Assembly (NCBI RefSeq): GCF_014861485.1
Contig: NZ_JACZHT010000001.1
Span: forward strand, 434,001-498,000
Direction of reading: 5' to 3'
Origin: Phaeovibrio sulfidiphilus
GTDB lineage: Bacteria; Pseudomonadota; Alphaproteobacteria; Rhodospirillales; Rhodospirillaceae
Length of the DNA stretch: 64,000 nt
Each line of letters begins with the position of its first letter. Positions within the stretch are counted from its first letter, which is position 1. The translations under genes were made by a program, and so were the position numbers. Positions 19,285 through 36,804 of the stretch are shown here, in pieces. Below the pieces are notes generated by a model. It had not been told where the DNA came from. It ran no database searches and was given only the letters and a program-made list of their open reading frames with translations.

Positions 19285-20865
19285 ATGAGTGTTACCCAGC
19301 ACGCGGACACGATCCGTGATCGTATTCTGATTGTCGACTTCGGCTCCCAGGTCACCCAGCTGATCGCACGGCGCGTGCGGGAAAGCGGGGTGTACTGCGA
19401 GATCCATCCGTTCAACAAGGTCACCCCGGAGAGCCTGACGGCCTTTGCCCCGGCGGGGGTCATCCTCTCGGGCGGCCCGGGCTCGGTCACCGCCACCGAC
19501 GCCCCCAGCCCGCCGGACGCCCTCTTCGAGATGGGCATCCCGGTCCTGGGCATCTGCTACGGACAGCAGATCATGATGGCCCGACTGGGCGGAACCGTCG
19601 TCAGCGCCGACAAGCGCGAGTTCGGACGCGCCTTCGTCACGGTCACCGCCCCCAGCGACCTGTTCGACGGCGTCTGGAAGCCCGGCGACCGCGAGCCCGT
19701 CTGGATGAGCCACGGCGACCGGGTCGAGACCCTGGCCCCCGGGTTCCAGGTCGTGGCCACCTCGGAGAACGCCCCCTTTGCGGTCGTGTCCGACGAGCGC
19801 CGCCGCTTCTACGGCGTCCAGTTCCACCCGGAGGTGGTCCACACCCCGGACGGCGCCCGCCTGCTGCGAGGCTTCACCCACGGCATCTGCGGCTGCTCCG
19901 GCTCCTGGACCATGGCCGCCTTCCGTGACGAGGCCATCGAGCGCATCCGTGCACAGGTCGGCAAGGGTCGCGTTATCTGCGGCCTGTCCGGCGGCGTGGA
20001 TTCCTCGGTGGTCGCGGCCCTCATCCACGAGGCCATCGGCGACCAGCTGACCTGCGTCCTGGTGGATCACGGCATGATGCGCCTGGGCGAGGTGGACGAG
20101 GTCGTCTCCGTCTTCCGGGACCGCTTCAACATCAAGCTGGTCCACCGCGATGCCTCGGACCTGTTCCTCTCCCGCCTGGAGGGTGAGACGGACCCGGAGA
20201 AAAAGCGCAAGATCATCGGCGCCACCTTCATCGATGTCTTCGAGGAAGAGGCCAAGAAGGTCGGCGGCGCCGATTTCCTGGCCCAGGGCACCCTGTATCC
20301 CGACGTGATCGAGAGCGTCTCGTTCGCGGGCGGAAACCAGGTCACCATCAAGAGCCACCACAACGTGGGCGGCCTGCCCGAGCGCATGAACATGGCCCTC
20401 GTGGAGCCCGTGCGCGACCTGTTCAAGGACGAGGTCCGGGCCCTTGGCCGCACCCTCGGCCTGCCCGAGACCATGGTGGGGCGCCACCCGTTCCCCGGAC
20501 CCGGCCTCGCCATCCGCATCCCCGGCCAGCCGCTCACCCGCGAGCTCCTGGACCTGCTGCGCAAGGCCGACGCCATCTACCTGGAGGAAATCCGGGCGGC
20601 GGGCCTCTACGACACCATCTGGCAGGCCTTCGTGGTCCTGCTGCCGGTGCGCACCGTCGGGGTCATGGGCGATGCCCGCTCCTACGAGTACGCCGTCGCC
20701 CTGCGCGCGGTGACCTCCACCGACGGCATGACCGCCGACTACTACCCGTTCGAGCACGAGTTCCTGGCGCGGGTCTCGAACCGCCTCATCAACGAGGTGC
20801 GGGGCGTGAACCGGGTGACCTACGACATCACCTCCAAGCCCCCCGGAACCATCGAGTGGGAGTAA
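19285..20865 (+). CDS. guaA: GMP synthase (glutamine-hydrolysing)
   Basis: The 526-aa product is full length. The N-terminal class I glutamine amidotransferase has ILSGGPGS and catalytic C91 in GICYGQQ with the FHPEV histidine; the ATP-pyrophosphatase domain has LSGGVDSSV and the C-terminal dimerisation domain ends [18 protein letters not shown]. It converts XMP to GMP. The 3' end is intact. guaA ends are known integration sites for genomic islands, which matters because the next gene is AT-rich. Confidence 0.97.
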
Positions 20866-21375
20866 GACGGCCCGTCAAGGCCCGGCCGCAGTCCGCCCGG
20901 ATACTGTCGTGACGCGGTGACCGAATAAGGCATGCGTCACGACAGAGCCAAGGTGGCAGAGACCCGGCCACCGGCATGGACAGCCGCTGACCCGGCGCCA
21001 CCCGGCCGGACACCGCAATATCCAACGACAAAAAGCCCGCACCACTGCGGGCTTTTTTCGTGTCAGGCCTGTACCAGAAGCGAAAAAGAACCGACCGAGA
21101 CGAACTCATGGTCGGCGCTCAAGCACCCCTTGCTCCGCCCGAAGAGTGCGGTTACCGTCCGACAAGTTGATACAGCCGAAAGACGAACCCTCCGATAATG
21201 GAGATAAATGCTTCAGGCTCACTTGCGACTTAGGATGACGCCCTTGACATTTCCCTAATCAAAGTACATTGATTATTTTTAATTTAATTATTGCGCTCGA
21301 AGACCTGATAATGATTAAAGTATATAAAAAACGTCATATCCGAAAAGATAAACTGTAAAAAATTAATATAATTTA
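20866..21375. other. gap between guaA and the DUF3644 gene
   Basis: Contains the guaA terminator (21031-21059). From about 21200 the sequence becomes strikingly AT-rich, with runs such as TTTTTAATTTAATTATT, unlike the surrounding chromosome. No gene or tRNA is visible. I looked for a repeat of the guaA 3' end beyond the next gene and did not find one. Confidence 0.55.
21031..21059 (+). terminator. intrinsic terminator after guaA
   Basis: AAAAGCCCGCA pairs with TGCGGGCTTTT around CCAC and runs into TTTTTTCG, 165 bases past the guaA stop. A strong classical terminator. Confidence 0.85.
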
Positions 21376-33669: not shown

Positions 33670-34112
33670 GAGAACGGTTATAGCCGCGAACGCAGCGATG
33701 CGCAAAACCTCAGTTCCCGGGAGCACGGGGCACGGGGCGGGAACGGGGAGGAACCCCGGGCCTGAACGCGGAGGCTGTATATGTGGCGCCATTAGGGCGG
33801 AGGCATCATAAGGACGGAGGCGGCATGGGCTCAAACGGGAACCTCACGACCCGTGCCCCCAACCACCCGAAGACGACGCGGGCCGAGCCCCCAAACCCCG
33901 GAGACGGCACGGCCCGCGCCGCCAAACGCCGGAGACGACACGGGCTACAAACAGGCCGTCAGAGGCGCCGTCACAGACACGGCCCAAAAAGGAACCGCCA
34001 TCCGGGAGACCTGGATGGCGGATCGGAACGCATCTCCCGAAACCAAGGGGTTCGGGGCGTGTTGCAGGATGGTTCTGCTGGCCGGACCGGGCGCAGGGCC
34101 CTCACACCCGGC
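33670..34112. other. intergenic gap with three imperfect 30-bp units
   Basis: No gene. From about 33853 to 33955 three degenerate tandem units occur, each with CCCCCAA or GCCAAAC followed by CCGGAGACG or CCGAAGACG and a GGGC-type end. The remaining sequence is ordinary GC-rich spacer. Confidence 0.5.
33853..33955. repeat. three imperfect tandem units of about 30-34 bp
   Basis: Units start near 33853, 33887 and 33919. The last two share CCAAAC.CCGGAGACG.CACGG. The array is short and degenerate; no spacers of CRISPR type are present. Confidence 0.5.
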
Positions 34113-34472
34113 CTACTCGGCGGCGATGGTCGAGCTCTCCTCGACTTTCGGCGCAACGGACCGCTTCTCACAGCCCTTGCAGTCCTCGTAAAGCCGGTGT
34201 GCCCAGTCGGCAAGCCCGAGAAGCTCGCGGTCCTCGGGGGTCTGCCCCTTGCGCGTCGTCCGGGAGACGGCCTCCAGGAATTCCTCGAGACCGTGTGGGG
34301 CTCCCGCGGCTCCCTCCGCCGCAGCCTCACGAAGCTGCTCGGCGATGGTGCGCGAGAGGTGAATGTTCTGGACAAAATCCCCACTGTCCGACGCCTGATC
34401 CGCGGACTTGTAGGCACCAATCATCCTGAATAGCAGTCGCTGTACCGAACTGGCCGGGCTATTGCCAATCAT
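34113..34472 (-). CDS. orphan 119-aa protein of unknown function
   Basis: A soluble, mostly helical 119-aa protein beginning MIGNSPASSVQRLLFRMIG; it contains LSRTIAEQLREAAAEGA, GLEEFLEAVSRTTRKG, ADWAHRLYEDCKGCEKR. A CKGC pair near the end is the only notable motif. No family is recognised. GGGAGG seven bases before the ATG at 34472 is an excellent ribosome site, the best argument that it is real. It stands alone next to a large gene-free region. Confidence 0.65.
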   Translation of the reverse strand: MIGNSPASSVQRLLFRMIGAYKSADQASDSGDFVQNIHLSRTIAEQLREAAAEGAAGAPHGLEEFLEAVSRTTRKGQTPEDRELLGLADWAHRLYEDCKGCEKRSVAPKVEESSTIAAE

Positions 34473-34895
34473 GATAGCCTCCCAATTAAAGCATTGCCGT
34501 TCCGACGCTGGAAACGAATGTTCTGAGCGCGTCTGTACACTGTCTCTCCCCTGGGAAAGGCGCTTATGATTTGACATTGAGGTTCTGCGGGCCCGAAAAA
34601 TCATGTCCCCGGGAACCTGTTCCGAAAGGAAGTATTAAGCCTTTAGTTTTAACAAGCCAATGAAATCGGTGACGCGGTACGCATTTGTAACCACCGCGCG
34701 AGAGACCGCGCAGAATCTTATCGCCTTGCGCGAATTATGCGGTATCCAGGAACCGCAAAAGGCTCCCCGGATCGGGCCGAACGCCGAAAAACAGGACGAC
34801 TCCGTCTCGACTCGGAATGAAAGTCGGTAACCGGTTGATATCTGGGCAAGACCCGGATCAATAACAAGAGCCTGATAAAAAAATATTTACAAATC

Positions 34896-34925
34896 TTGTT
34901 CTTAGGGAATTTTCTGGAATATAAC
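34896..34925 (+). promoter_or_regulatory. probable promoter of the candidate small RNA
   Basis: TTGTTC (34896-34901) and TATAAC (34920-34925) are 18 bases apart; the -10 matches consensus at five of six bases. Transcription would start near 34932. The neighbourhood is AT-rich. Confidence 0.45.
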
Positions 34926-34931
34926 CACAAC

Positions 34932-35024
34932 AAAAGCTCGCCTGGCGTGCAGACTGAAACCAGAGCGAGAAAGCAACCCTTGGACTGCACTGCCTGTACA
35001 GTCTACATCCGAACGGATGTTTTT
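34932..35024 (+). ncRNA. candidate small RNA with three stem-loops and terminator
   Basis: About 93 nt with no open frame. Stem 1: CTCGCCTGG (34937-34945) pairs with CCAG (34960-34963) and, after one bulged A, GCGAG (34965-34969), nine pairs. Stem 2: GGACTG (34982-34987) with CAGTCT (34999-35004). Stem 3: ACATCCG (35005-35011) with CGGATGT (35014-35020), followed by a T-run, an intrinsic terminator. A promoter lies correctly upstream. I do not recognise a known RNA family. Everything rests on structure and position. Confidence 0.5.
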
Positions 35025-35739
35025 GCCAAAAAACGCCATCCGGGAGCCCGTACGGGGCAAAGCAGCCTCCCCGCCGGAGAGCCGCGGGAGAGCGGCCCGG
35101 GGGACACCGGGACGGGACAGGGACGGGCCCGCGCCTCCCGTGTTCCGGGTCCGGTCGAAAGACCCCGATACGGTCGCAGGGATACAGCGCCACCGCCACC
35201 CCCGGAAGGCGACAGGAACGGGCGCCACAAGAACGGACGATATAGAGTGGGAAGGCACCGGCCGACTGCGACGACAGGCATGCACGACGGCGGGACTGGC
35301 GGGGCGGGCCAACGGCGGACGCACGAAAACGCGGGGGTGGTGGGATGCGCCCTGGCGACATGGGAACGCACCGGCAGGCGGAAACCGACACCTGGGACAG
35401 CGGGCATGGCGGGATCCGGCAACGCCCGGGCAATCCGGGCCCGCACCGTCAACGGGAGGACACCGGCAGGCGGCGGCGGACGCATAAGGCAGTAGGGGAT
35501 GGGGCGCGGCACACTGGCGATGCGGGGGGATGCGGCACCGCGAAAACTCCCCGGCACCGCGAGGACGCCCCGGCACTCTGAGGGGGCGACGGCACCGCGA
35601 GGACGCGACGGCGCCGGCATGCACCGCCAACGCGAGGACACCCCGCCGGGGAACCGCGGACCGGCGGGCCCGGTCGCCCTGCCCCCCGGTCGGGAACAGG
35701 GCGCGGCGTCGCCGGCCGGCGGTGCCCGGTGTCGCGCGA

Positions 35740-36300
35740 TCAGAAGCCCACGAACAGGCTGGCCTTGACGTTGCAGATGGGACACGGCTCCGGATGGGCG
35801 CCGATATGGGTGAACCCGCACACCGGGCAGATGAGGATCTTGTCCTCGCCAAGGGCCATGTCCCGGGAGTTGGCCGCGAGCCCCCGGGCCTCCTCGAAGA
35901 GGGCCGCATGGATCTTCTCGGCCTCGAGGGCATAGCGGAACGAGCGGACCGCCTCCTTCTCTCCCTGAAGCTCGGCGGCCTGCAGGTACACGGGGTACAT
36001 CTGGTTGACTTCCCCCAGTTCCCCCTCGATGGCCCAGTCAAGATTTTCGACCACGGACTTGAGGCCGAACTCTCCCCCCGCGCAGACGGACGCTCCGCCG
36101 GTCAGATCCCGCAGCGCGCGGAAGTGATTGGTCGCGTGGATCTGCTCGGCATGGGCAATTGCCTCGAACAGGCGCCCGATGTTGGGAAAGCCGTTCCGGG
36201 CGGCGTGGTCACCCCAGATCAGGTAGCGCATGTGGGCCATGGACTCTCCCCCATAGGCATTGCGCAAAAAGTCCGCGGTCATCGGATTTACATTGGACAT
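35740..36300 (-). CDS. rubrerythrin
   Basis: A 186-aa rubrerythrin. The ferritin-like four-helix domain has paired iron-binding segments (NAYGGESMAHMRYLIW, EAIAHAEQIHATNHF, EGELGEVNQMYPVYLQAAELQGEKEAV, ALEAEKIHAALF) and the C-terminal rubredoxin-like Fe site has CPVCG and CPIC. It detoxifies peroxide in anaerobes and microaerophiles using reduced rubredoxin or similar donors. GAGG lies eight bases before the ATG at 36300. It is divergent from the 88-aa gene. Confidence 0.93.
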   Translation of the reverse strand: MSNVNPMTADFLRNAYGGESMAHMRYLIWGDHAARNGFPNIGRLFEAIAHAEQIHATNHFRALRDLTGGASVCAGGEFGLKSVVENLDWAIEGELGEVNQMYPVYLQAAELQGEKEAVRSFRYALEAEKIHAALFEEARGLAANSRDMALGEDKILICPVCGFTHIGAHPEPCPICNVKASLFVGF

Positions 36301-36537: not shown

Positions 36538-36804
36538 ATGACGGACATGTCCGATCCTTCCGCCTCCTCCCAGGATCCGATCACCACACTTTTCACCATG
36601 CTGGCCCAGGCCTTCGAGGCCGAGAGCGAGGATCTCGCCCGGGCTCTTGAGGACGGCAGCCTGGCCCTGGAGATGAGCGAGGACGACGAGGGCGGCCGCT
36701 TCGTCGAGGCCACCTGGACCCGGGGCGGCACGCCGCGGGTGGCCCGGGTCTACCGGGACCGCGTCCTGCGCGAGAAATCAGCCCGCGGGGACCGCCCGGC
36801 GTGA
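36538..36804 (+). CDS. 88-aa acidic protein co-translated with cNMP-TPR protein
   Basis: A small acidic protein: DPITTLFTMLAQAFEAESEDLARALEDGSLALEM, then GRFVEATWTRGGTPRVARVYRDRVLREKS. No family is recognised. Its stop overlaps the GTG start of the next gene, implying coupled translation at similar levels and a shared job. The ATG at 36538 is chosen for initiation codon and position; an ATG three codons on is possible. Confidence 0.65.
   Translation: MTDMSDPSASSQDPITTLFTMLAQAFEAESEDLARALEDGSLALEMSEDDEGGRFVEATWTRGGTPRVARVYRDRVLREKSARGDRPA

Follow-up and report, generated by a model that had tools for sequence, protein, structure and literature searches.

An orphan candidate small-RNA gene in the intergenic gap next to rubrerythrin in Phaeovibrio sulfidiphilus

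The DNA analysed here, a stretch of 64,000 nucleotides from Phaeovibrio sulfidiphilus (hereafter, the window), contains a 1.27-kb region that the first-pass annotation described as gene-free. Codon-position composition bears this description out: no genes are found between an open reading frame (ORF) of 119 aa (34113-34472, minus strand) and the rubrerythrin gene (35740-36300, minus strand; PF02915). The unit considered below, a putative small-RNA gene, lies on the plus strand of this gap and is divergent from the 119-aa ORF and convergent with rubrerythrin. Is the site, perhaps, a part of a gene for a protein? It had been stated that no open frame is present; in fact, ATG/GTG/TTG frames do cross or overlap the site (199 aa on the plus strand; 379, 272, 191 and 90 aa on the minus strand), but none of them has a coding composition, their GC content being flat by codon position, e.g. 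0.65/0.66/0.69 as against 0.65/0.43/0.84 in rubrerythrin. A short protein-coding gene, for which the TTG-start frame of 199 aa and a GTG at 34947 might be adduced, is disfavoured because of this composition and, given that no ribosome-binding site precedes the GTG, appears to be the least probable of all the readings discussed here. The role of an mRNA leader, such as a riboswitch or an attenuator, can be ruled out, since the next plus-strand gene with a coding composition starts only at 36801.

The surroundings of the unit show several features of their own. The 119-aa ORF has no Pfam match; its homologues, with 33-63% identity, are found in four of the 58 other genomes of the family, including Pararhodospirillum oryzae, which belongs to the same family as the source genome, and a scan of genome contigs yielded matches only in P. 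oryzae and, as a fragment, in an uncultured MAG. At two of the homologue loci (L005 and L006), neighbouring ORFs resemble, as judged by eye, a molybdenum-binding protein and a NifX/NafY-type protein. Upstream of the ORF, at 34640-34685 (minus strand), the window carries a weaker version of a short block around TTTCATGGAACTGTT that is common to the loci L003, L004 and L006; the distance of this block to the start codon varies among the relatives, and it may represent a promoter or some regulatory site. At the other end of the gap, the 700 bp at 35040-35740 have a GC content of 70-78% and a strong A-over-T skew on the plus strand, and carry short degenerate repeats (period of 19 bp at 35533-35616); the rest of the genome has no long match to this segment. 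In the gap that precedes an HD-domain gene, a 31-bp unit is present in 3.2 tandem copies (33845-33943).

The promoter that had been described, namely a -35 box TTGTTC (34896-34901, plus strand) and a -10 box TATAAC (34920-34925) separated by an 18-base spacer, is indeed found in the sequence, with a layout of the sigma-70 type. The -10 box agrees with the consensus at five of six positions, but the -35 box does so at only three of six and is thus weaker than the description implied, which is why a generic promoter scan with a 9/12 cut-off does not list the site (34896-34925). What the earlier description missed is an A/T tract, ATAAAAAAATATTTACAAATC (34875-34895), that adjoins the -35 box upstream and resembles an UP element. 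The consensus of UP elements, in its 21-bp form, is NNAAAWWTWTTTTNNAAANNN, and the tract, scored against it, matches 11 of the 14 specified positions; scores of at least 11 are reached by 46 of the 927,118 positions of a 464-kb background, made up of the window and 400 kb sampled from the same genome. The surrounding 60 bp, in a genome with 67% GC, rank among the highest 0.05% of windows in AT content across the same 464 kb. PMC2412878 quotes a consensus of 17 bp in which three N precede the final AAA; since the final AAA of the consensus is matched with this spacing as well, the fit is independent of the form used. The UP match and the AT-richness of the surrounding 60 bp make a real promoter likelier than it would be from the hexamers alone. 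The candidate is akin to strong promoters with UP elements (PMC2412878) in the suitable A/T composition beside its -35 box, and differs from them in the weakness of this box; the consensus, moreover, is that of E. coli, and the activity of the tract in this host is putative. RNA polymerase carrying the housekeeping sigma factor would initiate transcription near 34932, as predicted from the position of the -10 box, with the UP-like tract compensating for the weak -35 box.

The predicted RNA, with its start placed by the -10 box and its end by the T-run, would span about 92 nt (34932-35023, plus strand) and is calculated to fold, with an energy of -28.9 kcal/mol, into three stem-loops. The nine-pair bulged stem of the earlier description is recovered by folding (34937-34969; arms 34937-34945 and 34960-34969, with one bulged A at 34964 and a 14-nt loop), and so is the six-pair stem (34982-35004), to which folding adds two inner pairs (34982-34987 with 34999-35004, and 34989-34990 with 34996-34997); the two are separated by a linker, AAAGCAACCCTT (34970-34981), that is single-stranded in the predicted fold. 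The third element, ACATCC-GAAC-GGATGT (hairpin at 35005-35020, followed by TTTTG; 35005-35024 as a whole), lies 88 nt downstream of the promoter and resembles an intrinsic terminator. Its stem, claimed to have seven pairs, has six, three of them G-C, and a GAAC loop, because a seventh pair would leave a loop of 2 nt; the T-run is present as claimed but is only four nucleotides long, so that the terminator is weaker than described, and it is absent from the list produced by a generic terminator scan. Transcription would be expected to stop at this hairpin, at 35020-35024.

The folding z-score of the predicted RNA is -2.6 to -2.8, and among random 92-nt windows of the genome, 3.6% have values of -2.5 or below; without the terminator hairpin, the z-score is -0.9. 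In a 46-nt tiling of both strands, the predicted RNA is the sole part of the 1.27-kb gap with a z-score near -2 or below. The antisense strand of the site folds about equally well (z -2.7), and CGGATG-TTTTTG-CC-AAAAAACGC-CATCCG forms an inverted repeat over two facing T-runs (35019-35035). Both observations are compatible with the view that the hairpins are nothing but terminators serving either strand, the RNA itself being functionless; yet on the minus strand no strong hairpin is directly followed by a T-run, the end of rubrerythrin is 700 bp distant, and the UP-like promoter as well as stems 1 and 2 would be left without explanation, so that we regard this view as quite improbable. A somewhat better case, albeit still an unlikely one, can be made for a real promoter whose transcript is longer, leaky or antisense, extends in the direction of the 3' end of rubrerythrin and affects the 3' untranslated region of that gene through interference or by pairing as an antisense RNA. 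The unit does point at this end from the opposite strand, its hairpin is weak, and the approximately 700 bp in between contain no strong rubrerythrin terminator near the stop of the gene. Nevertheless, most transcripts should stop at 35024, at the terminator-like hairpin, and the arrangement was not found to be conserved.

Both arms of stem 2, CUGCAC on the 5' side and CAGUC on the 3' side, are complementary to the loop of stem 1, GUGCAGACUG, which can pair with one or the other; the match of GUGCAG with CUGCAC belongs to a 9-nt inverted repeat, and a pseudoknotted alternative fold is possible. By chance alone, such short complementarities arise frequently. That we deal with a genus-specific regulatory RNA whose two alternative conformations, with the loop bound to one or the other arm, might work as a switch, perhaps linked to the adjacent oxidative-stress gene for rubrerythrin, has a very slim probability.

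How often would such a unit arise by luck? A unit was defined as a promoter with at least 8/12 consensus matches and, 50-250 nt away, a terminator stem of at least six pairs with at least four T in the next six positions. By this definition, which was set after the site had been seen and was made wide enough to include it, so that the figures are optimistic and the true significance is lower, five units are found on both strands of the 400-kb sample, corresponding to 0.016 expected per 1.27-kb gap, and a unit is present in 0.7% (plus strand) to 3.3% (either strand) of the dinucleotide shuffles of the AT-rich stretch at 34506-35035. In the entire 464 kb there are eight units, of which several are GC-rich, with open frames, and probably false. 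The rarity of such units in both the genome and the shuffles speaks for the contention that the layout is unlikely by chance, but with criteria chosen post hoc and a z-score of -0.9 without the terminator, the statistical case is weaker than was claimed.

The main rival to a small-RNA gene, and a serious one, is accordingly a chance assembly, whereby an AT-rich stretch in a GC-rich genome yields promoter-like hexamers and, by luck, a short hairpin with a T-run downstream, with no discrete RNA being made. It draws on the fitting of the criteria to the site, the weak -35 box and the short terminator (neither of them listed by a standard scan), the 3.3% of shuffles that hold a unit on either strand, the eight units in 464 kb, several probably false, and the lack of conservation in searches of the family, order and class. 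It is at odds with the UP-like tract, which adjoins the -35 box exactly, and with the co-occurrence of a promoter, a fold and a terminator in a gap otherwise devoid of structured windows. On these grounds, we consider a chance origin possible, although the balance tilts against it. A further promoter-like site occurs at 21024-21300 (minus strand) of the window, followed about 230 nt further downstream by a terminator-like hairpin; this hairpin, GCCCGCAGTGGTGCGGGC, lies between an A-run and a T-run and is probably the bidirectional terminator of a guaA-like gene that ends at 20865.

With respect to known RNAs, the site had been said to belong to no recognised family, and a comparison with Rfam (release 15) agrees, having returned nothing at the gathering threshold; a relaxed search gave, on the unit's own strand, only a chance-level SNORA77 match that overlaps the last bases. 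The candidate thus resembles the small-RNA families of Rfam, including those of Alphaproteobacteria, in size and general layout only. It is single-copy in its genome. Conserved homologues, for which a search in related genomes had been suggested, did not turn up: covariance-model searches of 59 genomes of the family, 297 of the order and 385 of the class (overlapping sets in which the source genome is included as the only one of its genus) gave no credible homologue, and 60 relatives searched at the DNA level yielded none either. Where a search covered more than 40 genomes, its filters were stricter, such that strongly diverged homologues could be missed. The covariance-model matches inside genes that, judged by eye from their translations, are cupin-like (L008), pheT-like (L010), prs-like (L013) and oxygenase-like (L014) were discarded as chance, and three others (G006; L009, L011 and L012) were rejected at 17-18 bits and per-genome E-values of 0.5-0.9. 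No match to the predicted RNA was found by blastn in phages and plasmids or by an exact pattern search in viral contigs, the intergenic regions upstream of the 119-aa ORF homologues (L003-L006) contain no counterpart of the unit, and the literature on small RNAs in Rhodospirillum yielded nothing on this locus. As far as can be seen from these sequences, the candidate appears to be restricted to its lineage.

The genome encodes Hfq (106 bits, over the cut-off). The candidate resembles the Hfq-dependent trans-acting small RNAs of Proteobacteria in its intergenic position, its own predicted promoter, its length of about 90 nt, its stem-loops with a single-stranded linker, its hairpin of the intrinsic-terminator type and its Hfq-encoding host. 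It differs from them in its short U tail, the 3' sequence after the terminator stem being TTTT only, which is short for Hfq binding; its transcription, Hfq binding and targets are putative, and its candidate seed is not known to be conserved. When the start regions of six neighbouring genes were compared with it in a crude duplex test, which allows unrealistically long interactions, none gave a significant pairing.

The best reading of the site is an orphan, lineage-specific and possibly Hfq-dependent small-RNA gene, to which we would give about an even chance. The position, the UP-like tract, the terminator, the absence of a coding signal, the presence of hfq and the lack of an Rfam match argue for the small RNA that had been proposed, whereas the lack of homologues and the weaker -35 box and terminator count against it. 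In the product, two stem-loops would be accompanied by a linker that is single-stranded and rich in A and C, AAAGCAACCCUU, and by a terminator hairpin whose U tail is short. The linker and the loop of stem 1 would be natural seeds, and the most likely action is that one or the other would base-pair with mRNAs encoded elsewhere, with Hfq assisting. Such an RNA would leave the understanding of known systems unchanged. Should it be transcribed, Rhodospirillaceae would have a further example of a young small-RNA gene confined to one lineage, and this example would be useful for understanding how small RNAs arise in AT-rich gaps of GC-rich genomes.
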